Below, in pieces: positions 348-26,808 of a stretch of DNA of 40,129 nucleotides. The stretch lies in the IMG/VR virus record IMGVR_UViG_3300044987_000538, positions 1-40,129 of that record, one strand, 5' to 3'. A program made the position numbers and the translations under genes. The DNA is from a virus. Under the pieces are notes generated by a model that saw only the letters and a program-made list of their open reading frames with translations, had not been told where the DNA came from and did no database searches. The first letter of the stretch is position 1; each line of letters starts with the position of its first letter.

Positions 348-376
348 ATTATAACATGGTTTTACCAACCTGTCAA
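348..376 (-). promoter_or_regulatory. Sigma70-type promoter for the 49-315 gene
   Basis: On the minus strand TTGACA and TATAAT are separated by exactly 17 bp. The spacer contains TGGTAAAACCA, shared with the other minus-strand promoters of this region. An AAGGAG leader and the ATG of the 88-aa gene follow. Confidence 0.88.
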
Positions 377-382
377 CCCCTT

Positions 383-598
383 ATGGACAGTTAGAAAAGA
401 ATTAAAGGAACTCCGGACTAGGCGCTAGCACCGTCTGCTAGATCGTCTGCCTTCATCATTACTGCCTACATACTCCGTCGCTTCTCCAGTCATTGCTGAC
501 CTATTTCATATACTTAGATTGAGCGTGGGCGGCCCCACAGTCCTCGCCTTAAGTACCTAACGGTGTAGGTAACCTTTAACTCTTTTCTAACTGTCCAT
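383..598 (-). ncRNA. Putative stand-alone structured RNA, about 216 nt, closed by a 26-bp terminal stem
   Basis: A 26-base arm at 383-408 is the inverted complement of 573-598 with one difference, which is a G-U pair in the RNA. A consensus sigma70 promoter (605-633) lies so that transcription should begin at or next to base 598, the first base of the stem. The stretch is not coding: the ATG at 598 meets a stop after three codons. Inside, read on the minus strand, are local hairpins: UACCUA/UAGGUA, GUGGG/CCCAC, a GCAA tetraloop on a 5-bp stem (GGUCA/UGACU), and CUAGCA/UGCUAG. Overall shape (long terminal stem, internal hairpins, about 200 nt) recalls 6S RNA or other phage ncRNAs, but I cannot match a known family. 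No U-run terminator is visible at the 3' side; the next promoter starts there. Confidence 0.65.
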
Positions 599-604
599 GT
601 GCTT

Positions 605-633
605 ATTATAGCAAAGTTTTACCAGTCTGTCAA
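605..633 (-). promoter_or_regulatory. Sigma70-type promoter for the putative ncRNA
   Basis: TTGACA-17 bp-TATAAT on the minus strand, with TGGTAAAA in the spacer. The -10 box is six bases from the start of the 26-bp stem at 598, ideal spacing for a transcript beginning exactly there. It touches the last codon of the upstream membrane-protein gene. Confidence 0.87.
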
Positions 634-866
634 CCCCACGCTTTGTATAACCCTACTACGCATAAGGTTATTGCCACGCCGTTGATAATCATCTGTTGTT
701 TATTTGCCACACGGTAGGCCCACGCAAAGAAACAGACTGCTCCCCCTAGTCCCGTTACAATAGTGTAGACGCGGAACTCTGGAAAGAAATTCATTAATGC
801 GTACATCACTAAGATGAATGCAGTCCCTACCCACTGTAGTACTTCGTCGATGTGTCTATAGCTCAT
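630..866 (-). CDS. Small inner-membrane protein (78 aa)
   Basis: Three hydrophobic segments are visible (about residues 10-28, 33-52 and 57-75), with the order helix, short FPEFR loop, helix, charged VANKQQ loop, helix. Layout and the VGTA-ILV-YAL opening resemble small bacterial membrane proteins of unknown function of the CBU_0592 type; I cannot confirm membership. Its ATG overlaps the stop of the 863-1243 gene (ATGA), so translation is probably coupled. Last gene of a minus-strand operon with 863-1243 and 1243-1533. Function unknown. Confidence 0.75.
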   Translation of the reverse strand: MSYRHIDEVLQWVGTAFILVMYALMNFFPEFRVYTIVTGLGGAVCFFAWAYRVANKQQMIINGVAITLCVVGLYKAWG

Positions 867-1243
867 ACATTACAACCTTCAGCATCAAGTTCCCAGCTGA
901 TGTCCTGGAACTTCTTATAAAGTCTATAGACATCCCGTTTGGCCTCTACCAACGCTTCAGCAATGAGGTCCTCGGCAGTCCCGTCAGTAAGGACTTCGCG
1001 GGCGTCTTTGTATAAGCATCCGCCCAGGAACTGTGAGCTGAGTTCGATGTTCTCAACCATAACTCGGACACGGAGCATGAACCAATCAAGGTTCCCGCAC
1101 TCGATGTCGCTATACATCTCTTTGAGGTCGAAACAGGAGTCATCGAAACAGTCTTTTGGGTCCAGGTCTTCATAGCTCTTGTCCACAATGATGTCAAAGC
1201 CGTTGCGCTCGTATACAGCCAGTTCGTCGTAGTATCTAGTCAT
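863..1243 (-). CDS. Conserved-type phage hypothetical protein (126 aa), acidic
   Basis: An acidic soluble protein rich in Asp/Glu with a Cys-containing central part (DPKDCFDDSCFD) and a FLGGCLYKDA segment near residue 75. No catalytic motif is recognisable. A good GAGGAG ribosome binding site lies inside the end of the preceding gene, and the start overlaps that gene's stop by one base (TAATG). The downstream membrane-protein gene overlaps by four bases. The three genes 1243-1533, 863-1243 and 630-866 therefore look like one early transcript from the promoter at 1564-1592. Confidence 0.75.
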   Translation of the reverse strand: MTRYYDELAVYERNGFDIIVDKSYEDLDPKDCFDDSCFDLKEMYSDIECGNLDWFMLRVRVMVENIELSSQFLGGCLYKDAREVLTDGTAEDLIAEALVEAKRDVYRLYKKFQDISWELDAEGCNV

Positions 1244-3265: not shown

Positions 3266-3308
3266 TTTAAACTCTCTATATATAGTATATAGTACATATA
3301 GTGTATAT
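3266..3308. other. AT-rich block beside the tRNA, possible unwinding region
   Basis: An almost pure A/T stretch made of overlapping TATATAG/TATAGT/CATATAGT units just left of the tRNA. With the DnaA boxes at 3454-3472 it could serve as a DNA unwinding element. That role is inference. Confidence 0.35.
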
Positions 3309-3384
3309 GGTGGGACTCCTGTGATTCGAACACAGCACCAAAGGATTATGAGTCCTCTGCTCTAACCAAATGAGCTAGAGTCCC
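3308..3384 (-). tRNA. tRNA with CAU anticodon (tRNA-Ile2 more likely than elongator tRNA-Met)
   Basis: Read on the minus strand, all arms are present: acceptor GGGACTC/GAGTCCC, D arm GCTC...GAGC with loop ATTTGGTTA, anticodon stem GAGGA/TCCTT with loop CTCATAA (anticodon CAT), T arm CTGTG/CACAG with TTCGAAT, and an encoded ACCA end. Length 77. The block after the D arm (GCAG-N3-ACTCATAATC-N2-TTGGT) is close to bacterial tRNA-Ile2, whose CAU is modified to lysidine and reads AUA, a codon frequent in the AT-rich genes here. The Ile2/Met distinction is inference. Confidence 0.93.
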
Positions 3385-3416
3385 TATACACAGTATATAC
3401 TACTCTGCATACAGTA

Positions 3417-3472: not shown

Positions 3473-3958
3473 GTGTGGCGTAAATGTGACAGAATCATTG
3501 AAAAATTGGTGGATTCTGGCCGGTATTTGGCCCATTTTGGGGCACTTTGACAGCCTTTTCCACGGTTTTTTAGGGTAGAAATCGTGAGGTCATGGTGGGG
3601 TTGAGAGGCTATAGTCAAATACTTTCCCACAGTCTCCCAAAGTTCTCCACTGTCCCCCACCAGGCCCCTACAGCGGGGTATTCACGGTTCGGACACTGCT
3701 TTCAGCTCACCAACTAGCGTTGTTGAACTGCTGGCAGACGCAGATCCTAGAGACCGTACAGCGGGGTATTCACACTATACACACATTAGATCTACAGTAT
3801 ATATGCTTTGGGCTACAGCGGGGTATTGTTGTATACGTGTTCTATGCTATACTAGTCACATACACACATGTACACACTCATTGTGAGTTTATGTATATAT
3901 ATGATCTAGTCGCTCTTTACAGTAGCATCGGGCAGTTTCATGTATAACTATATACACT
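3473..3958. other. Non-coding control region
   Basis: No convincing gene. The left half has short near-repeats (TTTTCCACG, TCTCCCA, TTCTCCACT) that resemble degenerate DnaA-type sites. The right half has three copies of TACAGCGGGGTATT and many TATA/CACA runs. A weak plus-strand promoter candidate (TTGTTG at 3826, TATACT at 3848, 16-bp spacer) could serve the small gene at 3959. Confidence 0.5.
3669..3827 (+). repeat. Three direct copies of TACAGCGGGGTATT
   Basis: Copies start at 3669, 3757 and 3814; the first two extend identically to TACAGCGGGGTATTCAC. The copies stand 88 and 57 bases apart, and the second and third are followed by TATAC-containing sequence. Conservation of a GC-rich 14-mer in diverged AT-rich flanks suggests protein-binding sites. 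Confidence 0.7.
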
Positions 3959-4530: not shown

Positions 4531-5292
4531 TTATCCTGCTCCGAATATACGGGCTTGGGGTTTGAGTTCTGGATTGTGCAGATAACTCCAGTTGCCCAAT
4601 AAGGTTGCTGACAGTTGTATATGATGCTGGGGGATGAAGTAGCGTTCCGGACCCTGTATATCCAATCCATCTACTAGGTTAGCGAACACACTGTCAGTCA
4701 TTATAACCACTTCTGCACCCTCTATGATCTTGATCCAATCAAAGATGCGGCCCTGATTTGATATGGGTACGGTCATCCAACCCTCGGGTATGATCTGTGG
4801 ATCGTAGCGCACAGTCTGCTCACTGCTGCTTAAATGGGTGACCACATAGGGTGGGCTGTTCTCACCGATGAGTTGATCATATAAAGCTGATTCTCTCCCT
4901 GGGTCACGGGTGATACACTCCGGTAAACGTAGCTTGTCTTTGAAAGGCACACCTGCACGTATGTACTTGTACTGATCAAAGGCCGTGTGTTGGAACCAGG
5001 GCTCTTGGACAAGATGTGGGTGTCCTGTCAATGCTTGATACAAGCATATGATCTCGTCACAGCCAAAGTTCTTTAGGCGTTCTCTGGGTATGTCATAGAA
5101 GAAAGGGCCTTGATCCGGGGTAATGGGTATCCACTTGACCCAGGGGGCCTGTGCTGTGAGTTGTTCTACCCAGGCATCTACTATGGGCCAGTGTACGTGA
5201 TACCCTTGTTCGTGGAAGTTCAGGGCTATGGGCAAGGCTATGATGATGTCACCTAGGCCCCGTGTTTGTATGATTCCGAGTTTCTTAGACAA
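4531..5292 (-). CDS. Glycosyltransferase family 9-like protein (253 aa)
   Basis: The start is TTG 5292 (TTGTCTAAG) with AAGGAA upstream; no better ATG exists near the N-terminus. KLGIIQTRGLGDIIIALPIALNF is the N-terminal Rossmann signature of ADP-heptose:LPS heptosyltransferase-type GT9 enzymes. The C-terminal half has the nucleotide-sugar side features of the family: VVTHLSSS, then WIKIIEGAEVVIMTDSVFANL (the GAE-V-TDS-F element). At 253 residues it is shorter than bacterial GT9 enzymes (about 320-350). Likely transfers a sugar onto host LPS or a phage glycan. It diverges from the virion genes at 5382; a TTGACA lies at 5350-5355 but has no -10 at good spacing. Confidence 0.7.
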   Translation of the reverse strand: MSKKLGIIQTRGLGDIIIALPIALNFHEQGYHVHWPIVDAWVEQLTAQAPWVKWIPITPDQGPFFYDIPRERLKNFGCDEIICLYQALTGHPHLVQEPWFQHTAFDQYKYIRAGVPFKDKLRLPECITRDPGRESALYDQLIGENSPPYVVTHLSSSEQTVRYDPQIIPEGWMTVPISNQGRIFDWIKIIEGAEVVIMTDSVFANLVDGLDIQGPERYFIPQHHIQLSATLLGNWSYLHNPELKPQARIFGAG

Positions 5293-6190: not shown

Positions 6191-7006
6191 ATGCCTTTCC
6201 CACAAGACCCCAAAACATTTACCCTTTATAACTATGGTACTGGTACGGCCACGGTCAGTAGCCTAGTATTTGCCACTGCCGATGGCACACAACATCGAGC
6301 CGACCTTTCGGGCTTTGGTGCCAGCACAACCTATACCAATCCAACACTTACAGGTTTAGCAGTTAGTCTAGCACCCGCTGCCAGCATACCTTTTACCCTG
6401 GACTATACCAACTCTAGTGGAGAGTTGACGTCTTATCGCAACATACTAACAATCAACGGAACAGTCAACGGATTTTCAGATCAAGCCAGTTTAGATGCTG
6501 ATGTAGTTGTATCTTCTGCTCCTGTAGTTGATGGGGGTGGAGGCGGCGGCGAAGGTGGCAACGCCCCGGGACCCTGTGGCGATGACGGTGTCAGCGCCTC
6601 GTGTTCTGCGTCAGGTGGTGCAGGCGGCAGCAGTGGCGGATGTGTGATAGCAACAAGTTTGACTAATTTAGGCACATGGTCTATGACTGAAAAACTAGAA
6701 TTAATACGTTGGTGTGAACAGTCTTTGCACAACACGGTATTAGGAGAAGCATTCAGAAGAGGCTATCAGGTTCTTGGATCAAGATTTATTCTCCCAGTAT
6801 TGTTCAAAAATGGAACTGGATTTGCATCTAAATATGTAGAATGGTCATTTAATAATGCCACAAGTATGTTACGTGGAAATCAATACAATAAATTATCCAT
6901 ACCAAATAGCATTGTTTGGTTAACAGCAATGACTTTAACCGGAGTTGTTGTGAGTAAAAGATATGCAAGAAAATCATGGATATCCTTGTATAGGAAAGCC
7001 AAATAA
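6191..7006 (+). CDS. Virion-associated protein: Ig-like domain, Gly-rich linker, CFIAT-type C-terminal domain (271 aa)
   Basis: Residues 1-105 are a beta-sandwich-like region (FTLYNYGTGTATVSSL, PAASIPFTLDY) of the ASH/Ig-like kind found in phage tail proteins. Residues 115-152 are a Gly/Ser/Cys-rich linker. Residues 153-271 carry GGCVIATSLTNLG, then ELIRWCEQSLHNTVLGEAFRRGYQVLGS, a C-terminal module I have seen in phage proteins and related to 'CFIATA' segments of secreted bacterial proteins. Base composition shifts from GC-richer to AT-richer at about 6640, at the domain border, which suggests the C-terminal part was acquired separately. Role: tail adhesin or decoration, by context. Confidence 0.6.
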   Translation: MPFPQDPKTFTLYNYGTGTATVSSLVFATADGTQHRADLSGFGASTTYTNPTLTGLAVSLAPAASIPFTLDYTNSSGELTSYRNILTINGTVNGFSDQASLDADVVVSSAPVVDGGGGGGEGGNAPGPCGDDGVSASCSASGGAGGSSGGCVIATSLTNLGTWSMTEKLELIRWCEQSLHNTVLGEAFRRGYQVLGSRFILPVLFKNGTGFASKYVEWSFNNATSMLRGNQYNKLSIPNSIVWLTAMTLTGVVVSKRYARKSWISLYRKAK

Positions 7007-7041: not shown

Positions 7042-8493
7042 ATGCCTTCAACATCGACAGTTTCCGTACCTATTCAAAGCTACATCGGTTTTAAAAGACC
7101 CGATGGCTCTGCCGTTGGAGGGTTTAGTGCTCCAAGACCCGTTCTACAAACTACAGAAACCCTAGATGGTGCAACCTTTGCAGTCACGGGTGCTACGGCC
7201 AATTCAAAGATGTTATATGTTTCTCCACTGGCCACATTTACCTATTTTCCAAACACGACCAGTACAGCACAGGTGGTAACTGTGATCAACAGCGGAACTC
7301 AAGTAGTTAAATTATTAAGGACTACATCAACAAACTATGACACAGAAGCAATAGTTGATGTTGACATTAGTATATTGCAACCCGAGATATCACCCGGTGG
7401 ATCTTATACATTTAATCTAAGTTACTATTCTGCCAATGTGGGCGAATATGCTGAATCTCTGCTGTTAGTTTCAAATGCTGACAGCCCTTATTACAGGATA
7501 GATACATTTCAAAATGTAATATCAGCTTTTAATTTTAGAGCTTCGCCGACTAGTGCTACATTTACAACCACTGTACTAGGATTAACATCTTCAACTTCTA
7601 TTGAGTTAGTACCAATAGTAAACGGTGCTGATGATTTAGATAGTGTATTAACCTTCGATGCTTCCTTAACTGGTAGCCCAGGTTGGACTTTTACCACAGG
7701 CACTAATTCTGTTAATTTATTTTGGGACCCAGATTATGTTGACAATGTAAACAATACCACAACTGGTTATACATCTACATTGGCTATTTCAGTAGTCGGC
7801 GCCGGATCAACTACTATTAGCAATAAGGCCTATGTTGACATTGACTATACAAAATATAGAAATCTTTCTACTTGGTATAGTGCAGGCGCCGGCAACAACA
7901 GCATAATTGGAATTAGTTTTGACATATTTGACGGCATTAAAACTGTTACTATTGGTGTTGGTTCAGGGGGTGACGGTGTTCCTATATATTCGGAAGGCGG
8001 GAATATTTTTACTGTACTGAAAAATTTGTATATTGGCGCAGGATCTATAGACAAACCATATCCTTACTGGGCAACCGTTTGTAATATTCCGTTACCAGTT
8101 GCTGGCACCTACCTCAGTGGTGAACTCAACGACATTGGTCTACCAAAATACGTTAAGAAAACTACCAACGGTTTAGATTATGCTGATTATTTTGGATTTG
8201 AACAAAGTGTTGGTTCAATGTTTGTTGTAACATATAATGGATATGATCTAGTAAACATTGAAATAAACAATCTAAGAGAACCATCAGGCGACACAGCCTT
8301 TGATCTAACAATGGCAAATCTAACAAGAGCATTCCATTATCATTCAACTATAGACAACCCAGCACGTTACTATCAGTTAGAAGCAGCCGTGCCAGGTGAT
8401 CCTCGAACAAGATTGTTTAGAGGTTTTGTTGCTACATCATTCTCACCTGAAACTTGGATAGTTGATACAAGCCTAGTTCCACTACCAACCTGA
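7042..8493 (+). CDS. Tail/virion protein with repeated Ig-like domains (483 aa)
   Basis: Nearly all predicted beta-strand, Thr/Ser/Asn rich. Two or three Ig-like (ASH-type) stretches are recognisable by their TVTVINSG / ISPGGSYTFNLSYYS / EYAESLLLVSN pattern at about residues 70-160 and again at about 165-260. The C-terminal 200 residues are less repetitive and may be a receptor-binding tip. No enzyme motif. No Shine-Dalgarno sequence; CTAAATTA lies nine bases before the ATG, a possible variant late box. It is the last structural gene before the biosynthetic run. Confidence 0.6.
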   Translation: MPSTSTVSVPIQSYIGFKRPDGSAVGGFSAPRPVLQTTETLDGATFAVTGATANSKMLYVSPLATFTYFPNTTSTAQVVTVINSGTQVVKLLRTTSTNYDTEAIVDVDISILQPEISPGGSYTFNLSYYSANVGEYAESLLLVSNADSPYYRIDTFQNVISAFNFRASPTSATFTTTVLGLTSSTSIELVPIVNGADDLDSVLTFDASLTGSPGWTFTTGTNSVNLFWDPDYVDNVNNTTTGYTSTLAISVVGAGSTTISNKAYVDIDYTKYRNLSTWYSAGAGNNSIIGISFDIFDGIKTVTIGVGSGGDGVPIYSEGGNIFTVLKNLYIGAGSIDKPYPYWATVCNIPLPVAGTYLSGELNDIGLPKYVKKTTNGLDYADYFGFEQSVGSMFVVTYNGYDLVNIEINNLREPSGDTAFDLTMANLTRAFHYHSTIDNPARYYQLEAAVPGDPRTRLFRGFVATSFSPETWIVDTSLVPLPT

Positions 8494-8532: not shown

Positions 8533-10350
8533 ATGCTAGAAAATATCTATCAAATTCCCCACGAAGAATCTCTTGCTGTCGATTGGCAAGGTTACGACCT
8601 TCAGTACGATCTGCAACTCTATGAGCTAGGACAGGGTCATAGTGAGTTTTTTGTAATCAATCCAAATAACGATATTCCAAAAAAATGGAAAACTGATCTA
8701 AAATATTATGTAGAAGAACTACCCGACACTAGGAAATGCATAGTTGTAGCTCATGAAGGTGAATGGATAGCTAAGATATTCAAAGATGGTTGGTATCCCT
8801 ATCATGGCTACGAAACTGTTGAGATAGTCAAGACTAAACTTGCTTGGACCAGGAACTCGGCCATTGATAAACTAATAACCTATGAAGATGATCCCTTTGG
8901 CACCTTTGAACCTAATAAATGGGATAGAAATTATAAGTTAGTATGGTATATAGATCCTAGATTTAATCCATTAGATGATAAAGTATGGGCATTTAGTTGC
9001 CAACCCATAGGCAAAGAAATATTAGGTACTAAAGACATGGGTTATGTTGTTCCTGACGTGCTTGTTCAATTCAATGAACATCTGCCTGACCTGGGAGTAG
9101 ATGCCAACGATTGTTGCCCTCCATTTTATGATCTAGCACACGAATGTGCCTATGAGTTAGATCCTATACATCAAACAAACAATGAACGTCTTTGGGTTAT
9201 AAAATTTACGCCTATGTGGCGCAGGCCTAAAGAATGGAAATGGTTAGGAACTATTACTCCTGAGTTTACTGTAATATACAATCCCGAGCTACCTAAATTA
9301 GATTATGATTTAGATTACCTAATACCTTGGCACGACTTTGACTATGAACATGTTTGGATGCTAGACAGAAAACATTTTAAGGAGGGTGAGGAAGATATAT
9401 GGGCATTTACTATACAAGTCACAGAAGAATTAGAAGGTAGCAAGATAGTAGACTACATTAGTCCAAATGTTAATATCACTTATAACTCGGACTTGCCTAA
9501 ATTAGAATACAATGAAGAATACATTGTGCCCTGGCATGACCTAGCCTATGAACATGTTTGGTATCTAGCAACTAATAAAACAACAGAGAAAGTTTGGGCG
9601 GTTAGAGCATCGATGTGCAATACTCCTATTGGTGAAAAAGAAGTTGGTACAGTAGTTCCGTTGTTTGAAGATCATCTAGATGTTGTCTTTATATCCTACA
9701 AGGAACCAAATGCAGATGAAAACTGGAATCGTGTATTAGAAAAGGCCCCATGGGCAAAACGTGTACATGGAGTTGATGGTATATTCAATGCTCACAAGGC
9801 CGCCGCCAAATTAGCAAAGACAGATATGTTCTTTGTAGTTGATGGTGATGCTTGGCTTGTGGATGATTGGCAGTTTGATTTCCAGCCGGGTATCTTTGAC
9901 AGAGACTGTGCCTATGTATGGTGCAGCCAGAATCCGGTAAATGACTTGACTTATCAAAATGGAGGTGTTAAACTGTTTAATAAGAGTATCCTAATGAAAC
10001 AAAGAAAATGGACCACTCTTGATATGTTCACGGGCATAATGCCTAAGATAAGCGCCGAAGATAAAATTAGCTGTGTTACAACATTTAACGTAGACGAATT
10101 CTCAACCTGGCGTAGTGCCTTTAGAGAATGTGTTAAATTATATAAAAACAATCAAATGGGCAAACTCAATGAATGGTTGAGTTCCGACCCAGAGAAGAAG
10201 TTTGGTAAGTATGCGGCCTTGGGTGCAAGTCAGGCCTGTGACTATGCCAGTGAATTTGCAAACGACCATACAGCATTGTTAAAGATCAATGATTACAATT
10301 GGTTAAGACAGCAATTTGATTTGCTGAACAAAGGTAAGAATAATGAGTGA
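8533..10350 (+). CDS. Repeat-containing glycosyltransferase-like protein (605 aa)
   Basis: Residues 1-395 contain about four divergent copies of a unit of roughly 85-100 residues. Its core is an aromatic segment of the type 'DL-YEHVW-LD', then 'E-IWAF-I', 'G-I-P', 'YN--LPKLDYD' and 'IPWHD'. The last 210 residues (from DVVFISYKEPNADENWNRVLE) look like a GT-A glycosyltransferase: a short Rossmann start, KAPWAKRVHGVDGIFNAHKAAAKLAKTDMFFVVDGDAW with a DGD motif in the place of the metal-binding DXD, and later KISAEDKISCVTTFN. The repeats may bind glycan or protein. First gene of the biosynthetic run. Family membership is inferred from the DGD context. Confidence 0.6.
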   Translation: MLENIYQIPHEESLAVDWQGYDLQYDLQLYELGQGHSEFFVINPNNDIPKKWKTDLKYYVEELPDTRKCIVVAHEGEWIAKIFKDGWYPYHGYETVEIVKTKLAWTRNSAIDKLITYEDDPFGTFEPNKWDRNYKLVWYIDPRFNPLDDKVWAFSCQPIGKEILGTKDMGYVVPDVLVQFNEHLPDLGVDANDCCPPFYDLAHECAYELDPIHQTNNERLWVIKFTPMWRRPKEWKWLGTITPEFTVIYNPELPKLDYDLDYLIPWHDFDYEHVWMLDRKHFKEGEEDIWAFTIQVTEELEGSKIVDYISPNVNITYNSDLPKLEYNEEYIVPWHDLAYEHVWYLATNKTTEKVWAVRASMCNTPIGEKEVGTVVPLFEDHLDVVFISYKEPNADENWNRVLEKAPWAKRVHGVDGIFNAHKAAAKLAKTDMFFVVDGDAWLVDDWQFDFQPGIFDRDCAYVWCSQNPVNDLTYQNGGVKLFNKSILMKQRKWTTLDMFTGIMPKISAEDKISCVTTFNVDEFSTWRSAFRECVKLYKNNQMGKLNEWLSSDPEKKFGKYAALGASQACDYASEFANDHTALLKINDYNWLRQQFDLLNKGKNNE

Positions 10351-11722
10351 AACTCAGCAACAATATATTAAAAAGATTATTTCTATAGTAGATAAAACAA
10401 GTCCTACGTTTTGTCTAGCCAAATGGCATCATGTTACTTTGTACTTACAGACAGGTGAAACCCATAGTTGTTATCATCCAGCTCCACATAAGATTGACCT
10501 AGCAGAACTTAAAAAGAATCCCAGTGCTCTGCACAATACATCGATTAAAAAACAAGAGCGTAAAGAAATGCTAGAAGGTGTGCAGACTAAAGGATGTCAG
10601 TATTGTTGGAACATTGAGAACATGGGTCCAAACTACATCAGCGATCGCCATATTAAGACCGCAAGTATCTTTACAGAAAAACGTTACAAACAAATTATAG
10701 ATAATCCTTGGGATAAAAATGTAAATCCGGAATATATTGAAGTTAGCTTTGGCAACGAGTGTAATTTTAAATGTGGATATTGTCACCCTAAAGCCAGCAG
10801 TCGGTTCTACAATGAGATTAAACAGTATGGTCCGGTAACCTCGGTTAAGAATCATCGTTGTGATATTGATTGGATGGATCTATATGAGAGAGAAGAAAAG
10901 AATCCTTATGTTGATGCATGGTGGCAGTGGTGGCCAAAGGTGCGTAAAACATTAGGTATTTTGCGTATTACAGGCGGTGAACCTTTGATGCATACTAGTA
11001 CTTGGAAGTTATTGAGCAGTCTCAAAGAAGACCCAATGCCCAAACTTGAATTGAATATTAACAGTAACCTAGGTGTAAAGCCTGCTCTAGTTGATAAAAT
11101 GGTTGAGTATGTAAATCATCTCACAGTGAGTAAAGGCATTAAAAGGTTTAAGTTGTATACCAGTATCGATACGTGGGGTCCTCGTGCTGAGTACATCAGA
11201 ACAGGTTTAGATTTAAAAATTTGGGAACGCAATTTAGATGCTTATTTGAAAGGCACAGGGCAACCTATTAGCTTTATGATTACATTTAACATCTTGTCTG
11301 TAACAACATTTAAGAGCTTATTGGAAAAAATCCTAGAGTGGCGAAGTGTTTATAATCAATTCAACAAAACAGACCAACCTCAGATGGTTAGATTTGATAC
11401 TCCGTACTTAAAAGAACCTTTACAGTACGACATGAATATTCTTCCTAAAAAAGAGTTTATGAAATATATGAAGGAAAGTCTTAAGTTTATGGAACAGAAT
11501 GTAGACGACAAGGACCCAACTAAATTTTCAGAAGTTGAGTTTGAAAAGTTTAGACGGGTAGTTGACTATATGGCAACGACTGAATACGACCAAGACAAGA
11601 TTAGCGAAGGTCAACGTGATTTCTACAATTGGTTTAACGAACTAGACACACGCCGCGGAACTGATTTCGTCAATACTTTTCCAGAGATGGAAAAGTTTTT
11701 TAAAAAGTGTAGTAAACTGTAA
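10343..11722 (+). CDS. Radical SAM enzyme with N-terminal twitch-like Cys domain, paralogue 1 (459 aa)
   Basis: CNFKCGYC (C140, C144, C147) is the CxxxCxxC site for the SAM-binding 4Fe-4S cluster; ITGGEPL follows as the GGE motif. Before it, C24, C43, C85 and C88 (FCLAKWHH, CYHP, CQYC) form a second Cys set in the arrangement of the N-terminal twitch/SPASM-like domain of 'twitch domain-containing radical SAM' proteins, which probably holds an auxiliary Fe-S cluster. It overlaps 8533-10350 by eight bases and touches the next paralogue in TAATG. Of the three it is the most divergent in the first Cys block. Likely cytoplasmic, substrate unknown (peptide or sugar). Confidence 0.85.
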   Translation: MSETQQQYIKKIISIVDKTSPTFCLAKWHHVTLYLQTGETHSCYHPAPHKIDLAELKKNPSALHNTSIKKQERKEMLEGVQTKGCQYCWNIENMGPNYISDRHIKTASIFTEKRYKQIIDNPWDKNVNPEYIEVSFGNECNFKCGYCHPKASSRFYNEIKQYGPVTSVKNHRCDIDWMDLYEREEKNPYVDAWWQWWPKVRKTLGILRITGGEPLMHTSTWKLLSSLKEDPMPKLELNINSNLGVKPALVDKMVEYVNHLTVSKGIKRFKLYTSIDTWGPRAEYIRTGLDLKIWERNLDAYLKGTGQPISFMITFNILSVTTFKSLLEKILEWRSVYNQFNKTDQPQMVRFDTPYLKEPLQYDMNILPKKEFMKYMKESLKFMEQNVDDKDPTKFSEVEFEKFRRVVDYMATTEYDQDKISEGQRDFYNWFNELDTRRGTDFVNTFPEMEKFFKKCSKL

Positions 11723-12951
11723 TGAACAATAAAGAATTCTTATTAAACGAAAGTAAAATCTTTTGTATGTTCCCTTGGATGCATTTAAATGTGACTCCGA
11801 AAGGCGACATCTATCCTTGCTGTAGTAATAACTATTCTACACCTTTTGGAAGCACCAAAGACACGTCATTAAAAGAAGCATTCAACAGTGATAAAATGAA
11901 ACAGTTGCGATTGAACATGCTTAACAATGTTAAAAGCAATATATGTGACTTTTGTTACAAACATGAAGAAGTAGGCCCCTATAGTTTTAGAACATATAGT
12001 AAGGATCATTGGGCTAAACGATTTGATGAACTTGTTCCAACTACATTAGACGACGGAACTGTTCCAGATTTTAAAATGCATTATTTTGATATTCGATTTA
12101 GCAATATCTGTAACTTTAAGTGTAGGACATGCGGTAGTGAATTTAGTAGTCAATGGGCCGCCGAAGATAGACATTATGATAAAAACAAACCAATTGTTAT
12201 CCACGCAGATGATCATAAAGGAGATCTATTACAAGAAGTATTAGATCATGTAGAACATATTGACCTAGCATACTTTGCAGGTGGCGAGCCATTGATCACT
12301 GAGGAACATTATGTTATACTAGAAGAGATGATCAGAAAAGGTAGAACAGATACAGTTTTAAGATACAATACCAATGCCAGTACAATTAAATATAAAAATC
12401 ATGACATACTCAGTTTATGGAAACATTTTAAAAAGATTGAACTAAGCTGTAGCATCGATCATTACGGTGAACGAGCGGAATGGTTAAGACATGGAACTGA
12501 TTGGGGCAAGATTGAAAGTAACCTATTAACATTCCGAGATTTAGATTATGTAGTGTTTCAAATTAATACAGTGTTTAGTTTGTTTAACTATCCTACACTT
12601 GGGGAATTTTACAATTACTTAAAGAGCAAAAACATTGTACAAACCAATGATTGGTACAATAGCTTGTATCTAGCAGTACATCCTAGTTATTATAGTGCTA
12701 AGAGTCTGCCTAAAGAATTAAAACTATTAGCCAAGTCGTCTGCATTAGATCTTGTTAAAAGCCACGGGGCAGAGTTTCCAGGCTTAACTAGATTGATCAA
12801 TGATGCCATAAGTTTTGCCGACCAGGACAATACATGGAAAGACAGTAAAGATACATTTTTTAAGCACACACGATCTCAAGACATATTAAGAAAAGAAGAT
12901 TTTTTTAAAACGTTTCCCGAACTAGAAAGATTGCAGGAGTTAGAAGAATAA
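11722..12951 (+). CDS. Radical SAM enzyme with N-terminal twitch-like Cys domain, paralogue 2 (409 aa)
   Basis: C130-NFK-C134-RT-C137 is the radical SAM cluster site, and FAGGEPL is the GGE motif. The N-terminal domain has FCMFPWMHLNVTPKGDIYPCC (Cys 15, 33, 34) and CDFC (75, 78), the classical SPASM-like pattern 'FC--PW-H----P-G---PCC' placed at the N-terminus. Between the domains, DIRFSNICNFKCR is nearly shared with paralogue 3. It begins in a one-base overlap with the previous stop. Same operon and presumably same pathway as its neighbours. Confidence 0.88.
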   Translation: MNNKEFLLNESKIFCMFPWMHLNVTPKGDIYPCCSNNYSTPFGSTKDTSLKEAFNSDKMKQLRLNMLNNVKSNICDFCYKHEEVGPYSFRTYSKDHWAKRFDELVPTTLDDGTVPDFKMHYFDIRFSNICNFKCRTCGSEFSSQWAAEDRHYDKNKPIVIHADDHKGDLLQEVLDHVEHIDLAYFAGGEPLITEEHYVILEEMIRKGRTDTVLRYNTNASTIKYKNHDILSLWKHFKKIELSCSIDHYGERAEWLRHGTDWGKIESNLLTFRDLDYVVFQINTVFSLFNYPTLGEFYNYLKSKNIVQTNDWYNSLYLAVHPSYYSAKSLPKELKLLAKSSALDLVKSHGAEFPGLTRLINDAISFADQDNTWKDSKDTFFKHTRSQDILRKEDFFKTFPELERLQELEE

Positions 12952-12952
12952 T

Positions 12953-14230
12953 ATGTATGACGTAAAACATTTAATCAAAGAAGGAAAACATTTCTGTGTA
13001 CTTCCTTGGATACATTTCCATTCTTGGCCTAATGGAAATGTAATGCCCTGTTGCGTTGCAGACAGCAGTAAACCCGTTGCAAAGATTAAGTCAGATGAAT
13101 CTATTATTCAAATGATGAACAGTGAGGATTTCAAACGCTTGAGACGAGATATGCTAGAAGATAAACCTAGTCCAGAGTGCAAACGTTGTAATGATGTAGA
13201 GTTGTTGGGTACTTGGACAATGCGTCAAAGTCATAATAAACGTAGGGGATTTGAATATATTGATATGATTGAAGCTACTAATAAAGACGGTAGCATTGAT
13301 AATTTTGAAATGCGTTATATGGACATTCGCTTTAGTAATTTGTGTAACATGAAATGTCGTAGTTGCGGCCCAGGATGCAGTAGCCAGTGGGCTCAAGAAT
13401 ATGTTAAGAAAAAATGGGGTATGGATCAGTTAGAGAAACACTTTGGCATGAAGTCTATTGTGGTTAACTCTAACGAAGACCAACTGTTTATGACTAAACT
13501 TAAACCTTATCTTAAAGATGTTACTGAAGTATACTTTGCCGGCGGCGAAGTTATCATCACTCCTGAACATTATGAGTGCTTGGACTATTGGATTGAAAAC
13601 AAATTAACAGATCAAATAGAATTAACTTACACTACAAATTTTAGTGTATTAAAATATAAAAATAGAGATCTGATTAAATTATGGAAGAAGTTTCCTAATT
13701 TAAAAATTTGGGCAAGTTTAGATGCAGGCGGCCCTCAAGCTGAAGTTATACGTAACGGCACTGACTGGGAAAAGACTATTAAGAACATTAAGAAATTGCG
13801 AGAAGACGTTCCCCATGCAGACTTCCAGATTACTCCTACTATAAGTAACTGGAATGTACATACATTCCCTGATTTCTTTGACAGTTTAATTGAACAAGGC
13901 CTATTGGTAATTGATAATCCAAAACGTCCACCTAATCCTAGGTTTAATTTGTTAAGTGATCCGTGGTATGCTAACATTATGATCCTACCAGAAATAGCCA
14001 AAGAAAAACTTATTCCACGCTACATTAAGTCGATGGAAAAGTATGCATTTAATAGAGATTTAAAGAATTCCTTCAAAACTGTGGTTTATACACTAATGCG
14101 TGGCGAACCCAATAAAGGTGGCATTCAAGAATTTATTAAATATAATGATGAAGTAGATATGCATAGAAAAGAAAAACTATTAGATGTAATTCCAGAATTA
14201 AAAGAGGTGTATGAATGGGCAAAGAGTTAA
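12953..14230 (+). CDS. Radical SAM enzyme with N-terminal twitch-like Cys domain, paralogue 3 (425 aa)
   Basis: C131-NMK-C135-RS-C138 forms the SAM cluster site, with FAGGEVI as the GGE motif. N-terminal Cys residues 15, 33, 34, 76 and 79 (FCVLPWIHFHSWPNGNVMPCC, CKRC) mirror paralogue 2. The similarity of paralogues 2 and 3 through MRYMDIRFSNLCNMKC and the spacing of both Cys sets shows a duplication. The gene starts one base after the preceding stop and its end overlaps the next radical SAM gene by 16 bases. Confidence 0.88.
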   Translation: MYDVKHLIKEGKHFCVLPWIHFHSWPNGNVMPCCVADSSKPVAKIKSDESIIQMMNSEDFKRLRRDMLEDKPSPECKRCNDVELLGTWTMRQSHNKRRGFEYIDMIEATNKDGSIDNFEMRYMDIRFSNLCNMKCRSCGPGCSSQWAQEYVKKKWGMDQLEKHFGMKSIVVNSNEDQLFMTKLKPYLKDVTEVYFAGGEVIITPEHYECLDYWIENKLTDQIELTYTTNFSVLKYKNRDLIKLWKKFPNLKIWASLDAGGPQAEVIRNGTDWEKTIKNIKKLREDVPHADFQITPTISNWNVHTFPDFFDSLIEQGLLVIDNPKRPPNPRFNLLSDPWYANIMILPEIAKEKLIPRYIKSMEKYAFNRDLKNSFKTVVYTLMRGEPNKGGIQEFIKYNDEVDMHRKEKLLDVIPELKEVYEWAKS

Positions 14231-15183
14231 TTGAAATTGTTGTAAAGACCAAATATCTTGCAGTAACTTGGCAAGTAAATAATTACTGCAACTTTAAATG
14301 TAGTTACTGTAATCCGGGCAACTGGAGCGGTACTGAATCTAACAACGGTAATCTAAGTACGTATCTTTATAATTTAGATACAATCATTTCTAAATATAAA
14401 ACCGAAGGTTATCAAGACTTTAAATTCTTTTTTAGTGGAGGAGAACCTACAGCATGGCGTAACTTTATTCCAGTCTGCGAATGGTTACGTAAAGAGCTTC
14501 CTAACTGTACTATCGCTGTAAACACTAATCTAAGTCGACCGTTGGCATGGTGGAAGAAACATTATCATTTGTTTGATGACATTGTTGCCAGTTTTCACGT
14601 TGAGTTTTCAGATAAGAAGGTCTACGAGAAAAACAGTTTATTCTTATGTAACAAGGTAAACTATTTGTCTAGCAAAATGCTTATGCACGATGAAAGATTC
14701 TGGGAAGTAGTAGAGTTTGGTGAGCATTTAAAGACTGTACTACCAAATTATTTTATCGAATGGACTCCACTATTTGATGAGATGACCGTTAATGCAGGTC
14801 CTTGGGAGTATAAAGATCCTGAAAAGGTTAAGTTCCTAAGCGAACACAATGTTGATACTAAACAAACTGTTGACAAGCCGTCAAAAGAAAATAACTGTAT
14901 CAGTTATGTTAAATTTAGTGATAAAACTATGACTCACGTGAATAGTAACGATATTATCATTAATAGACAGAATTTCTTCAAAGGATGGAAATGTAATGTA
15001 GGCGATTCACTGTTTATTAATCCAGCCGGAGCTATCAGTTTAGCAAGTTGCGGCCAAGGCGGTTATGTTGGCAACATCTTAGGCGATATAAATGATATTG
15101 GACCTAAACAAATTGTCTGCGGTAAAGAGCATTGCCACTGCGGCACCGATATTATCATCCCTAAAATTAAAATCACTGAATAA
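14215..15183 (+). CDS. Radical SAM enzyme with C-terminal Cys cluster (322 aa)
   Basis: C25-NFK-C29-SY-C32 is the radical SAM site and FFSGGEPT the GGE motif. Unlike the three upstream enzymes it has no N-terminal Cys domain. Instead the C-terminal 100 residues carry several Cys: WKCNVGDSLFINPAGAISLASCGQGG, then CGKEHCHC, a SPASM/twitch-like arrangement for auxiliary Fe-S. ATG 14215 overlaps the previous gene by 16 bases and has GAGG within reach. Likely acts on the same substrate class as the adjacent paralogues. Confidence 0.85.
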   Translation: MGKELIEIVVKTKYLAVTWQVNNYCNFKCSYCNPGNWSGTESNNGNLSTYLYNLDTIISKYKTEGYQDFKFFFSGGEPTAWRNFIPVCEWLRKELPNCTIAVNTNLSRPLAWWKKHYHLFDDIVASFHVEFSDKKVYEKNSLFLCNKVNYLSSKMLMHDERFWEVVEFGEHLKTVLPNYFIEWTPLFDEMTVNAGPWEYKDPEKVKFLSEHNVDTKQTVDKPSKENNCISYVKFSDKTMTHVNSNDIIINRQNFFKGWKCNVGDSLFINPAGAISLASCGQGGYVGNILGDINDIGPKQIVCGKEHCHCGTDIIIPKIKITE

Positions 15184-15186
15184 TTA

Positions 15187-17427
15187 ATGATGTCTATTAA
15201 AGTAGTTTATAACTGGATTGGCCCGGCGGGCGGAATACCCAACGACGAACCCCCTAACTTGATTAACCTTGCGGCAGTTACTGGGTTAACTCAGGTGCAG
15301 TCTACTAATTTTTATGTAGATGGTTTGTATAAAAAATTGTTTGATTGTAAAGAATATGAAATTGCTCCCTCGTATATGTTAAAGGAACAGGAGCATTTTG
15401 TTTATCCATTTTCTTTAACTTGGCGAATACCTTTTCAACAATATTTCTATAATAAAACTGGACTCCTTGAATGGGGACATGTACCTAAACAAATAACGCA
15501 TTATGTGCGGGCAAGGAATGGATTCTTTTTAATTGATATGAGCGTAGAAGCATATATTGAAAATCAACACCTGGCTGCATTGCACGGATATTTTAACGAT
15601 CAGAGAATCCCACTACACAAAATTATATATCTAACAGGTTGCATGAACGCCAACGAGGTGTATTATAAATGGTGTAATAAACATAATATATCGCCTGACT
15701 TTAGAAAACGATTAACAATTATTTCTTATCCAATGTCTCAAACTCCTGTTGCGTTACACGCACAAGATCCAAAGAATGAACCTACTTACAATCTAGAACA
15801 GATTCCTAGTAAATTATTCTTATCTTGGAATCGTAGATTTCGTCCTCATAGAATAGGATTATCTTTACTATTAGAAGATGCGGGACTAGTCGACAGAAGT
15901 TATTTTAGCTTGAATAAAATATCAGACGAGAATTCAAGTGACAGATTTATGGACCATATACATCATGCAGAAAAATTTAAGTTAAATCCGGATGTTGCAG
16001 AACGATTAAACAACAAATTGCCTTTAGTAATCGATGGTGAAACAGATATTGGAAAAATGTGCGGCGACTTTGATAATGCAACACGTAAATTTTACCAAGA
16101 CAGCCTTGTTAGTATAGTATCAGAAACTAACTTTGACTTATCAGAAGTTACCCTAACTGAAAAGTCATTTAAACCAATTAAGGAAAAACACCCTTTCCTT
16201 AGTGTAGGAGCACCGGGTACACTGTCTGCCTTGCGAAAAATGGGATTTAGAACATTCAGTGACTTTTGGAGTGAAGAGTATGATACAATGCAAGATCATT
16301 GGGGTAGACTAAAAGAAATTGCAAGGGTATGTGTTGAAATTTCTAAATGGGATACTGAGAAAATTTTAGAATTTAGGAAACAGGTACTTCCTATATTAGA
16401 ACATAACTACAACATTTTAAAAGTTGATACATCTATTAATGTGTCAATGCAAATTGCAGATATAATTCATGGAAAGAAAATGAAAAAAATATTAGTGTGC
16501 GGAGCAGGTGGATTTATTGGATCACACCTAGTTAACAATTTAAAAATACAAGGACATTATGTTATCGGTGCTGATTTAAAACGCCCTGAATATATGTCAA
16601 GTCAAGCTGATGAATTTCATATAATGGATCTACGGCATAGAGAAAATGTTACAAATTTAATTAAAGAAGACATTGATGAGATTTATCAATTTGCAGCAGA
16701 CATGGGAGGTGCAGGTTATATATTCACTGGTAACAATGATGCTGATATCATGCATAATTCTTCTATAATTAACTTAAACATATTAGATGAAATGCGAATC
16801 AAAAAGATTAAAAAGATTCTTTATAGTTCAAGCGCCTGTATCTATCCTGCACATAACCAAGAAGATTCAAACAACCCTATCTGCAGTGAAGATAGTGCGT
16901 ATCCTGCTAACCCAGACAGCGAGTATGGTTGGGAAAAACTATTCAGCGAACATCTATATACTAGTTACGCACGAAACTATGGAATAGACATACGTATTAT
17001 ACGTTTCCATAATGTGTTTGGACCCTACGGCTCCTGGAACAATGGCAAAGAAAAAGCGCCAGCAGCTCTATGTAGGAAAGTTGCACAGAGTTCTGGAGAA
17101 GTAGAAGTTTGGGGTGATGGGAATCAAACTCGTACCTTCCTTTTCATTGAAGACGCTATTGATGGCATTAATAGAATCATGGCAGGTGAATATAAAGCTC
17201 CTTTAAATTTAGGAAGCGGCAGAATGATTTCTATCAACGAGTTGGTTGTAATGATTTCTAGAATTGCAGGCAAAGAAGTAACTATTAAAAATATTAATGG
17301 GCCCAAAGGAGTTAACGGTAGGACCAGCGATAATACGCTAATAACCGAAAAACTAGGATGGCAACCACCTGATCGTTTAGAAGAAGGATTGACTAAAACG
17401 TATAACTGGATACAAGGTTTGATTTAA
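15187..17427 (+). CDS. Fusion: glycosyltransferase-like domain plus GDP-mannose 3,5-epimerase-like domain (746 aa)
   Basis: Residues 1-431 form a glycosyltransferase-like region (FLSWNRRFRPHRIGL, then VTLTEKSFKPIKEKHPF and GAPGTLSALRKMGF), sharing the TEK-KPI-PF-PG element with the genes at 17429 and 19337. From residue 432 a complete extended-SDR sugar epimerase follows: GAGGFIGSH nucleotide site, DMGGAGYIF, SSSACIYP with a Cys, YGWEK catalytic Tyr/Lys, KEKAPAA and WGDGNQTRTF. This order is that of GDP-mannose 3,5-epimerase, including the catalytic Cys and the Lys of KEKAP. The enzyme converts GDP-D-mannose to GDP-L-galactose and L-gulose. An internal ATG at 16480 exactly at the domain border could also yield a free epimerase, but no strong ribosome site precedes it. 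Confidence 0.82.
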   Translation: MMSIKVVYNWIGPAGGIPNDEPPNLINLAAVTGLTQVQSTNFYVDGLYKKLFDCKEYEIAPSYMLKEQEHFVYPFSLTWRIPFQQYFYNKTGLLEWGHVPKQITHYVRARNGFFLIDMSVEAYIENQHLAALHGYFNDQRIPLHKIIYLTGCMNANEVYYKWCNKHNISPDFRKRLTIISYPMSQTPVALHAQDPKNEPTYNLEQIPSKLFLSWNRRFRPHRIGLSLLLEDAGLVDRSYFSLNKISDENSSDRFMDHIHHAEKFKLNPDVAERLNNKLPLVIDGETDIGKMCGDFDNATRKFYQDSLVSIVSETNFDLSEVTLTEKSFKPIKEKHPFLSVGAPGTLSALRKMGFRTFSDFWSEEYDTMQDHWGRLKEIARVCVEISKWDTEKILEFRKQVLPILEHNYNILKVDTSINVSMQIADIIHGKKMKKILVCGAGGFIGSHLVNNLKIQGHYVIGADLKRPEYMSSQADEFHIMDLRHRENVTNLIKEDIDEIYQFAADMGGAGYIFTGNNDADIMHNSSIINLNILDEMRIKKIKKILYSSSACIYPAHNQEDSNNPICSEDSAYPANPDSEYGWEKLFSEHLYTSYARNYGIDIRIIRFHNVFGPYGSWNNGKEKAPAALCRKVAQSSGEVEVWGDGNQTRTFLFIEDAIDGINRIMAGEYKAPLNLGSGRMISINELVVMISRIAGKEVTIKNINGPKGVNGRTSDNTLITEKLGWQPPDRLEEGLTKTYNWIQGLI

Positions 17428-17428
17428 A

Positions 17429-18478
17429 ATGTTAAAGGTTTATTTCCTTTCAGCGCATGGCTCCTTTGATATTGAAACAGAACTTAATAACATATATAAA
17501 TCAAACCCAGATAAAATTATTTGTTATTGTTCTCAGGAATTAGAATATGAAATAATCTTTGGTGAATTCTTTGATAAAGCACAGCCCTGGTTAATATCTA
17601 AAAATAAAATTGTTAATTTAGTTACTCCTCACTTAGACAATGTATATGTAAGACTAAACGTGGTGGCAGAAAAGAGTTACGGATTTATATCCGATTACAT
17701 GTATGATGTAACCTTTAATAGTTATGATGGTGACAGGCCTCCTAGTAATCAAACTACCCCGTATCCAGTAGATTTTGGCAAAATCAATAAATTGTTTACC
17801 TGCTACAATAATAATTATAGAGTAGAAAGAGCAATGTTAGTTGATACTTTAGCAAGAGAAGATTTGTTAGACTCTGGTATTGTCACATTCAAAAACCCAG
17901 AAGACCATCCAGTTTGGACTTACCATGACGGCTCTAGATTATTTGACGAAGAAGATTTTGAGCTCCATACTAAAAATTACTCGCCAAATATGTTCCCTAA
18001 AAGTTTTTTTAACACATTCTTTGATATAGTACCTGAAAGTAGATATGATCCCGGCGAATACTTTATCACTGAAAAAACGTTAAAAAGCATTTTTGCATTC
18101 AAACCATTTATTGCATTTAGTTCGACCGGATACCAAAAAGAATATTTAGAAAAATATATAGGACTTAAACCCTACGATGAACTATTTGATTATGGTTTTG
18201 ATAGCGAACCAACTCTTGTGGGCAGAATAGAAGGAATAGTAGACAATGTAAAACGATTGAATCATTTGTCTTTTAAAGATTTGACTGAATTATATAATCA
18301 ACTTATTCCTAAATTAATATACAACAAATCTCAAATTGTAAATTTATTTTTTGACAAAGATCGGATAGTGCCAAAATGTGCAAAGTTTTTAATTGACGGC
18401 ACTGAATATGAAATTTGTTCTGTTAGTGAACCTGCGGTAGTCGCTATGGCAAGGAGATTTAAGTGGACCAGAGAATAA
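17429..18478 (+). CDS. Glycosyltransferase-like protein of the 'ITEKT-K' family (349 aa)
   Basis: Residues 200-235 carry FFDIVPESRYDPGEYFITEKTLKSIFAFKPFIAFSS, the element also present at 16110-16240 and in the gene at 19337, where an ITEK segment precedes 'K-I---+PFI'. This resembles the donor-binding core of exostosin or fucosyltransferase-like enzymes, but the family is not certain. The N-terminal half (VYFLSAHGSFDIETELN) is unrelated to the other two. No signal peptide. It begins one base after the epimerase fusion and overlaps the next gene by 16 bases. Confidence 0.55.
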   Translation: MLKVYFLSAHGSFDIETELNNIYKSNPDKIICYCSQELEYEIIFGEFFDKAQPWLISKNKIVNLVTPHLDNVYVRLNVVAEKSYGFISDYMYDVTFNSYDGDRPPSNQTTPYPVDFGKINKLFTCYNNNYRVERAMLVDTLAREDLLDSGIVTFKNPEDHPVWTYHDGSRLFDEEDFELHTKNYSPNMFPKSFFNTFFDIVPESRYDPGEYFITEKTLKSIFAFKPFIAFSSTGYQKEYLEKYIGLKPYDELFDYGFDSEPTLVGRIEGIVDNVKRLNHLSFKDLTELYNQLIPKLIYNKSQIVNLFFDKDRIVPKCAKFLIDGTEYEICSVSEPAVVAMARRFKWTRE

Positions 18479-19347
18479 AAAAATATGTGATAGGTTTAGG
18501 CTGTAGTTGGACCCAGGGCGAAGGCGGATACCCTGAATACATATGGAAAGAATACAACGGCCGAGTTCAAATTCGTGCCAAGCCAGATGAACATGTAAGG
18601 ATCTACGAGCATGAAAACAGTTGGGTAAATGTTCTTTGTAGAGATCATATGCCCGACCATACTCCTATCAATCTTGGTGCAAGAGGCATAGGCAATCGTG
18701 CAGCCGTTAAACAACTTTATTTCTGTGATACCGTCGATTGGGATAACAGCGAAGGTTATATCATTTTAATGTTAAGTGGTCTAGAAAGGTTTGATTTCTT
18801 TTCACAACACCCTTATGGTCCTAATAACAACAACCACAAAGATGGTTATTCAAATGGAGATTTTAGACATTACAAATGGCGTACTATGTGGCCGCATCCT
18901 AACGATGGTCCTGAAGGCCCTCTCTGGACTGTATATTTTGAAATGTTGCATAGTGATGAATTTATTGCCTGTGAAACAATGATTGCTTTATTAGAATTAC
19001 AAGCATTTTGTAAAGCATATAATTTTAAAATAATTGTTGCTAATGCATTTAACAACTATCATCCAAAGGGGTTAGATGAGTTTCTTAGAATACAAACAAA
19101 GTCGTTGTTTGATAAGTTTAATTGGAACACTTATCTACATAAAACAACACCATACACGGCGTTTGTACAAAAATTTGTAGAACTCGACGGGCTAATGAAT
19201 CCAAAAGATTGGGGTGGCCACTATGAATTTTACGAAAAGATGGCCTGGCCACCAAAATATCTAACAAATTGTATCCATCCTAATGTAGATGGATACAAAG
19301 TTATAGCAGAAGAACTACATAAGTTCATTAAAAGTAATGCCGATTAA
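18463..19347 (+). CDS. SGNH/GDSL hydrolase-like protein 1 (294 aa)
   Basis: Start is GTG 18463 with AAGGAG at good spacing inside the preceding gene. VIGLGCSWTQGEG is block I with the nucleophile Ser; NLGARGIGNRA is the Gly of block II; NCIHPNVDGYKVIAEEL is block V with the catalytic His (the usual D--H appears as C-H, so Asp is missing or elsewhere). SGNH enzymes remove or transfer acyl groups on sugars; phage relatives occur in glycan clusters. No signal peptide, so cytoplasmic. A second, shorter member lies at 22296. Confidence 0.65.
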   Translation: MDQRIKKYVIGLGCSWTQGEGGYPEYIWKEYNGRVQIRAKPDEHVRIYEHENSWVNVLCRDHMPDHTPINLGARGIGNRAAVKQLYFCDTVDWDNSEGYIILMLSGLERFDFFSQHPYGPNNNNHKDGYSNGDFRHYKWRTMWPHPNDGPEGPLWTVYFEMLHSDEFIACETMIALLELQAFCKAYNFKIIVANAFNNYHPKGLDEFLRIQTKSLFDKFNWNTYLHKTTPYTAFVQKFVELDGLMNPKDWGGHYEFYEKMAWPPKYLTNCIHPNVDGYKVIAEELHKFIKSNAD

Positions 19348-22299: not shown

Positions 22300-23123
22300 G
22301 CAGACTAATTGTCAGTGGGTGTAGTTTTACTCTTCACCTACACCCAACATGGCCAATGTTTTTAAGTAAGAAGTTTGACGAAACTTACTGTTTTGGAGCT
22401 GGTGGCGCAGGTAACGACTACATATTCAATAGTATAATTGACGCCGACAGTATGTTAAAATTTAATCAAGACGATACCATTATCATAGAATGGTCCGGTG
22501 ATCATAGATTAGATCATTTTATTGAAGACGGTGATTCAATTAGTTGGGTAACTCGAGGAGATCTTTCTCATCGACCAGTTGATGAATTTGCAATGTTAAA
22601 TTCTTATTTTCCAGAAAAAGGATTGAAGAAAAAAACAATAAATTATATGTTAGCTGTATATCGATACCTTAAAGAAAAGAAAGTTAATTTTATTTTTACG
22701 TCTTTATATGATTTAAGAACTGATGAATATTCTGATCTTTTAAAAGAAATGTATGAAGATTGTTTTATATTACCGAGCGGAATGACAGAGTATTTTTTAA
22801 AGAAATTTGTTTATACTGGATTGTCTAAACCGGGTTGGGGACATCCTGATTTTACAGTTCATTATGAATTTGCCAAAGAATTTGCAAATAAATTAAAAAT
22901 TGAATTAGATCCAGAGCCTAACTTATCAAATTTGTTGGATCTTGTAGGAACTGAGGAAAATTATCACGCATACGCAGATCGTATCTTGGCACACCCGTTA
23001 CATAAGACAGTATTACACCAATTTTATTCTTCATTGCCCAATCCAACTCCTTATATAACTGAGCTAACACCAAACTCTTGGGAAGTATATCAAACAATTT
23101 TACAAGATGTATTAGACAAATAA
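22296..23123 (+). CDS. SGNH hydrolase-like protein 2 (275 aa)
   Basis: LIVSGCSFTLH gives block I with the nucleophile Ser, and FGAGGAGNDYIF gives block II (GAGN-D). The ending block is WGHPDFTVHYEFAKEFANKL: a His followed by a helix, as expected for block V. The start overlaps the previous stop in ATGA with an AAGGA site upstream. It differs from the 18463 protein in spacing, so the two are distant paralogues. Likely cytoplasmic; acyl ester hydrolysis or transfer on a sugar is the family expectation. The C-terminal 60 residues are not recognised. Confidence 0.6.
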   Translation: MSRLIVSGCSFTLHLHPTWPMFLSKKFDETYCFGAGGAGNDYIFNSIIDADSMLKFNQDDTIIIEWSGDHRLDHFIEDGDSISWVTRGDLSHRPVDEFAMLNSYFPEKGLKKKTINYMLAVYRYLKEKKVNFIFTSLYDLRTDEYSDLLKEMYEDCFILPSGMTEYFLKKFVYTGLSKPGWGHPDFTVHYEFAKEFANKLKIELDPEPNLSNLLDLVGTEENYHAYADRILAHPLHKTVLHQFYSSLPNPTPYITELTPNSWEVYQTILQDVLDK

Positions 23124-23135
23124 TGGAGATTAGAT

Positions 23136-25385: not shown

Positions 25386-25401
25386 AAAGTTATATAACAC
25401 T

Positions 25402-26692: not shown

Positions 26693-26696
26693 AATT

Positions 26697-26807: not shown

Positions 26808-26808
26808 T

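Follow-up and report, generated by a model that had tools for sequence, protein, structure and literature searches.

GOLLD (RF02032), a structured phage RNA found near tRNA islands, has many members longer than 800 nt and has been reported to bind ribosomes in pull-downs, and its function is unknown (PMC12286853). ROOL (RF03087), a structured RNA of phages and prophages that is often located near tRNA islands, likewise has no known function (PMC12286853). Phage ICP1, which lacks tRNAs, produces as its most abundant transcript a non-coding RNA about 800 nt long, whose role is unknown (PMC7567579).

Here we analyse a small structured RNA encoded in a virus record of IMG/VR that is 40,129 bases long and is classified as linear and as a probable fragment; we call the whole record the window. 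Like GOLLD, it is a structured phage RNA of unknown function that occurs near tRNA islands, a setting also frequent for ROOL; unlike them it is small, GOLLD being far larger and a separate gene, and the ROOL model having 574 positions. It shares with the ICP1 transcript the character of a phage non-coding RNA without a known role (homology was not compared), and differs from it in that transcript's length and in that phage's lack of tRNAs. The RNA almost certainly belongs to a real, conserved family that had not been described before.

A structured non-coding RNA in the window

The RNA occupies the minus strand at 383–598, and the elements referred to below are as follows.

605–633, minus strand: RNA promoter TTGACAGACTGGTAAAACTTTGCTATAAT, consisting of −35 box, 17-nt spacer and −10 box, with 0 mismatches to the promoter family of the window
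383–598, minus strand: the RNA from first to last base of its closing stem, 216 nt, from the fold and the inverted repeat; matched by covariance model R1 at 397–584
573–598, minus strand: 5′ arm of closing stem P1, with both-side changes in 10 of 12 modelled P1 pairs (37 members)
560–569, minus strand: 5′ strand of P2, CCUACACCGU, from covariation
511–555, minus strand: hairpin P3 with P3b and a GNCG tetraloop (GCCG in the window), from covariation
486–503, minus strand: hairpin P4, with a GCAA tetraloop in the window member, from fold and covariation
465–478, minus strand: 3′ strand of P2, ACGG AGUA UGUAGG, from covariation
456–462, minus strand: conserved GUAAUGA, the letters GUAAUG each present in 98–100% of members
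409–455, minus strand: P5 domain, subtype B, with hairpin P5b at 425–441 (loop AGACGGU), from covariation
383–408, minus strand: 3′ arm of P1, on the same basis as the 5′ arm
348–376, minus strand: promoter of the next gene (ORF 49–315), beginning 7 nt beyond the 3′ arm of the RNA

The two arms of the closing stem are 26 nt each, are 96% complementary as DNA and enclose an interior of 164 nt; their single mismatch becomes a G-U pair in the minus-strand RNA. This inverted repeat scores 22, against a best of 12–15 when a finder of this kind was applied to 20 first-order resampled windows. The minus strand of 383–598 has a minimum free energy of −80.1 kcal/mol (z = −5.39), and none of 200 shuffles was as low. 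No open reading frame of at least 50 amino acids overlaps the segment. The first-pass annotation, which had described a non-coding segment of 216 bases closed by a 26-bp inverted repeat with one G-U and containing internal hairpins, one of them with a GCAA tetraloop, is therefore borne out in each of these respects.

The same annotation had given the RNA a consensus TTGACA-17-TATAAT promoter of its own, and an exact match lies at 605–633 (−). The motif TTGACANNNTGGTAAAACNNNGNTATAAT was written from promoter copies within the opening 2.5 kb of the window, where it has four exact occurrences against 0 expected by chance. The stem begins at 598, 7 nt past TATAAT, a usual distance from a −10 box to +1; this base is the predicted start, for which there are no 5′-end data. 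Between the 3′ arm and the promoter of the next gene (348–376) no U-run terminator is present in the window; placed between the two promoters, the segment therefore reads as a compact transcription unit. That it lies in an early-type region is plausible, given the small minus-strand genes and repeated sigma-70-like promoters around it. In several related contigs the next gene's promoter (TTGACA-17-TATAAT) is embedded in P5 and the P1 3′ strand of the RNA (L018, around 4940–4975; L039; L079; L163), so that RNA sequence and promoter overlap.

Elsewhere in the window, a unit of about 20 nt, CCCTACAGCGGGGTATTCAC, whose role is unknown, is directly repeated three times at 3666–3830. Genes for radical-SAM proteins, some of which are B12-binding, for epimerases and carbamoyltransferases and for heptose-kinase-like proteins form a long series at 10343–28284, possibly a modified-sugar or natural-product pathway.

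An RNA family with a fixed core

Related viral contigs were gathered with the proteins that flank the RNA, encoded at 49–315 and 863–1243 (minus strand). In several of them the same 26-bp arms, at the same place, enclose a very different interior, giving overall lengths of 216–259 nt. A conserved 5′ motif, GGTTACCNANNCCGNTAGG, marks at least 120 stretches in IMG/VR; 76 distinct members remained once chance matches had been removed, and others added by the model R1 bring the family to about 80 distinct members on IMG/VR contigs. Its near-invariant elements are GGUUACC..CC..UAGG, GAA, CGG and GUAAUG. Because the selection of members relied mostly on the 5′ motif and in part on GUAAU, the invariance of the motif letters is overstated. 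The P3b tetraloop is GACG or GCCG in 53 of 82 members, P5 is the most variable domain, and the interior measures 147–268 nt (median 174). All 84 loci tried match R1, the covariance model constructed in this analysis, at E below 3e-9, including loci of subtypes C and D, which were absent from its construction. The window itself has the P1–P5 architecture and the near-invariant motifs, and matches R1 with 160 bits (E 2.6e-42), its sequence being part of the training set.

Closing stem P1 is built from unrelated sequence in different phages and is complementary each time (ATGGACAG.., CACTATATGTAAACACATTAGGG.., ACCAAATTTAATTGCATTAGG..). It is long in 55 of 76 members and shorter in 10; an automatic search left the other 11 unresolved. 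The window also has a second stable RNA inside a closing stem: a tRNA gene at 3311–3384 (−) is enclosed by a 19-nt inverted repeat (3283–3301 and 3384–3402; 79% complementary), the whole spanning 3283–3402.

Compensating mutations support the fold

Thirty-seven members of subtypes A and B were aligned with MAFFT, without fitting the alignment to a structure, and were compared with a hand-written structure of 56 pairs. Pairing was found in 88.8% of cells, against 36–43% when partners were slid by 1–3 columns and 72.8% in shuffled data. Changes on both sides of a pair numbered 314, against at most 88 in the slid and 107.7 in the shuffled controls, and were spread over 40 of the 56 pairs. Since the structure was derived from the same 37 sequences, the slid control favours it; the gap is nonetheless very large. 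On a model-fitted alignment of 82 sequences, 89.9% of cells were paired and both-side changes came to 1066, compared with no more than 226 after sliding; all five P3b pairs showed both-side changes. The 15 highest values of corrected mutual information over all column pairs of the model-fitted alignment all fall on pairs of the structure. Covariation also contributed an additional last pair of P2 (alignment columns 25–274), which appears as U-G, U-A, C-G or G-C and is 100% paired. A candidate loop-to-junction pairing of GACGG loops with CCGUU was rejected, since by covariation the fourth base of CCGN belongs to P2.

The resulting architecture is a long closing stem, P1, around a three-way junction of P1, P2 and P5, with P2 ending in a second junction with P3 (often capped by the GNCG tetraloop) and P4. 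The orientation assigned to the RNA is right, because G-U pairs fall on the strand read and neighbouring tRNAs lie on the same strand. The shape of the RNA is under selection, as the compensating mutations across the aligned sequences indicate. Such changes in homologues had been named by the first-pass annotation as a check on its proposal, and they are abundant.

One copy in very large freshwater phages

Of 24 whole records searched with R1, many of which are 200–383 kb long, 22 had exactly one copy. Most of these records had been chosen because they hold the RNA; a fair sample is provided by contigs chosen by flanking proteins. Among contigs of at least 150 kb chosen by flanking proteins alone, 7 of 8 carry one copy (the eight being L009, L055, L064, L072, L079, L100, L142 and L148), and the copies in L009 and L055 were detected by the model alone. 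In a set of mostly short records, 16 of 47 had a copy and none had two. There is thus one RNA gene per phage across many very large freshwater phages, and its genome position differs between them.

A same-strand tRNA, with Glu and Asp the most frequent, lies within about 25 nt of the RNA end in 28 of 76 members, and within about 205 nt in 38 of 76. The tRNA arrays that host the RNA comprise up to 31 tRNAs, and a boxA-like TGTTCTTTAAAAA stands upstream in many array members. Other members, that of the window included, lack a neighbouring tRNA and come with a promoter of their own. The earlier description of a stand-alone RNA with its own promoter accordingly holds for the window and fails for the family as a whole, about half of which lies near or inside tRNA arrays. 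A separate permuted tmRNA gene is present in two relatives. In one relative the tmRNA match is of beta type, a hint that the host is a betaproteobacterium.

GOLLD itself was found in the same tRNA arrays, at a separate place, in 3 of 18 phages; in L232 it lies at 7981–8445 and the window-type RNA at 6384–6613, about 1.4 kb apart, which makes them distinct genes. Nor does length permit membership of GOLLD, which extends over several hundred nucleotides with a conserved 3′ half, when the interior of the present family is at most 268 nt. GOLLD RNA and permuted tmRNA genes were observed in the tRNA arrays of L232 (7981–8445), L236 (6170–6449) and L170 (6264–6540).

We also observed a second RNA-like leader of about 85 nt, GCAAGGCGATCCTCAAATGTAAGAACCC..GGGTTGTAACCAAGGGATACGAAGCGAGTTTGGAGACTCGGCCTAAGC, just after TTGACA/TATAAT promoters, where it precedes the new RNA, boxA/tRNA arrays or start codons. 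It lies upstream of the new RNA or a tRNA array in L163, L168, L174, L246, L258, L348 and L324, and upstream of protein genes in L074 (around 8846–8960) and L175 (around 12166–12260). The 35 IMG/VR stretches that contain it, 29 of them distinct, have a common predicted fold, and a comparison with Rfam at E 0.5 gave no match. Possible identities for it are a put-like antitermination RNA, a riboswitch and a ribozyme.

No real member was recovered from the bacterial and isolated-phage collections searched. In GTDB contigs a strict two-part pattern found nothing, and a looser one found 12 stretches, none of which R1 accepted (best E 0.31). In isolated phages, blastn with three members of different subtype returned nothing; blastn is weak for diverged RNA, and distant relatives are not excluded. 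No description of such an RNA in huge or jumbo phages was found in the open-licence literature.

Alternative identities of the RNA

The first-pass annotation had been unable to assign a family and had offered three guesses: a 6S-like decoy, a defence-related RNA or a new class of phage non-coding RNA. Searches of Rfam with the window and 27 related loci, at gathering and relaxed thresholds, gave no family for the RNA. In the window, GOLLD (RF02032) did not exceed its cut-off and ROOL (RF03087) had no match; ROOL was also missing from all 18 phages searched, a weak absence because the control genomes lacked a match too. Only the last of the three guesses is supported, by covariation, R1 matches and copy number, while the defence-related reading is neither supported nor excluded. 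6S RNA is a single long hairpin whose central bubble imitates an open promoter. Like 6S RNA (RF00013), the RNA described here is small, stand-alone and non-coding and has a long closing stem, and titration of the host RNA polymerase could profit a phage. It differs from 6S RNA in architecture and sequence: covariation supports two three-way junctions in place of one long hairpin, and the Rfam 6S models had no match in the window up to E 10 and none at 0.5 in 15 relatives. An identity as a 6S-like polymerase decoy is consequently highly improbable.

Terminal inverted repeats and a genome position that varies among phages would also be expected of the transcribed ends of a mobile or MITE-like element, and arms recurring at other loci had been named beforehand as an outcome that would refute a structured RNA. 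The arm sequences were found nowhere else in the window, whole records carry single copies, and the arms are unrelated between phages yet always complementary. These results refute the usual form of a mobile element, and with covariation extending through the interior we give hardly any credence to other forms. A ribozyme or a packaging RNA like that of phi29 would be compatible with a compact multi-junction fold, one gene per phage and an own promoter, but no ribozyme or packaging-RNA family of Rfam was matched. Packaging RNA is known from small phi29-like podoviruses, a different size class from the phages considered here, and we regard this identity as improbable. A tmRNA, with its tRNA-like domain and tag reading frame, was likewise rejected as a candidate, there being no tmRNA match to the RNA.

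Proposed processing and function

The explanation that best joins these observations is that of an undescribed family whose members are trimmed by RNase III at P1 into a stable phage RNA acting in trans. We assign it a probability of about 0.62, a compromise over parts of unequal standing: existence of the family is close to certain, trimming at P1 is somewhat favoured, and a role in trans remains tentative. The RNA would be transcribed from its own sigma-70-type promoter, as in the window, or within the transcript of a tRNA array. Host RNase III would cut closing stem P1 and thereby release a stable core of about 150–270 nt, steps that are inferred without transcript or end data. RNase III cuts the closing stems around 16S and 23S rRNA, and bacterial rRNA precursors with their boxA leaders resemble the present RNA in the long closing stem and in the boxA-like TGTTCTTTAAAAA upstream of array members. 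This is a likeness of working only, as the RNA enclosed here is not rRNA (no Rfam match). RNase III probably trims at P1, because members inside arrays lack a promoter or terminator of their own at the RNA ends and P1 is the sole boundary that members share. No phage-encoded RNase III gene was found in 14 of these phages, with a working control, so processing at P1 would fall to the host enzyme. It may not be universal, given the roughly 10 of 76 members with a short closing stem and the 11 of 76 left unresolved.

Once released, the core might work in trans in the infected cell, serving translation or host takeover as a scaffold or a binding partner. This is the least certain step, put forward with some doubt and without expression or phenotype data. 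It would work like GOLLD and ROOL, to which the RNA is not homologous as far as compared; the analogy explains little, those RNAs being far larger and themselves of unknown function. The tRNA and tmRNA neighbours point to translation, and the association with tRNAs may reflect co-transcription only. A more specific picture is possible and falls short of an even chance: a near-universal single-copy core RNA of a large group of huge freshwater phages would be released from tRNA-array or early transcripts by rRNA-like processing, and its conserved core would then target the translation machinery of the host in trans as the phage takes over.

The same neighbourhood admits two other readings. The RNA might serve counter-defence as a decoy, binding or titrating a defence protein or an RNA-processing protein of the host: it can have its own early-type promoter, its peripheral domains vary rapidly around a fixed core, and a place beside tRNAs would fit, since tRNAs may counter tRNA-cutting defences. 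However, no linked defence or anti-defence gene was noticed (the search was not systematic), and a single copy in nearly every well-covered phage, together with the strongly fixed core, is more reminiscent of a core function than of an accessory kept for an arms race; a decoy is unlikely, without being negligible. Alternatively, the RNA could be a processing or folding spacer with a cis role in the maturation or antitermination of tRNA transcripts and no function once released, as its position inside tRNA arrays, often adjoining tRNA-Glu or tRNA-Asp with the boxA-like sequence upstream, might suggest. Against this, many phages, that of the window included, keep the RNA away from any tRNA and under a promoter of its own, and the interior loops GAA, GUAAUG and GNCG show more conservation than a spacer would require, making such a role quite unlikely.

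Discussion

A single-copy RNA of very large phages that is absent from Rfam extends the short list of tRNA-island RNAs, so far GOLLD and ROOL, whose role has long been an open question. At only about 170–300 nt, the RNA described here is much more tractable than either of them for folding, mutation, pull-down and structure determination, and the covariance model, together with natural variation that sets different domain types on one core, provides a guide for experiments.
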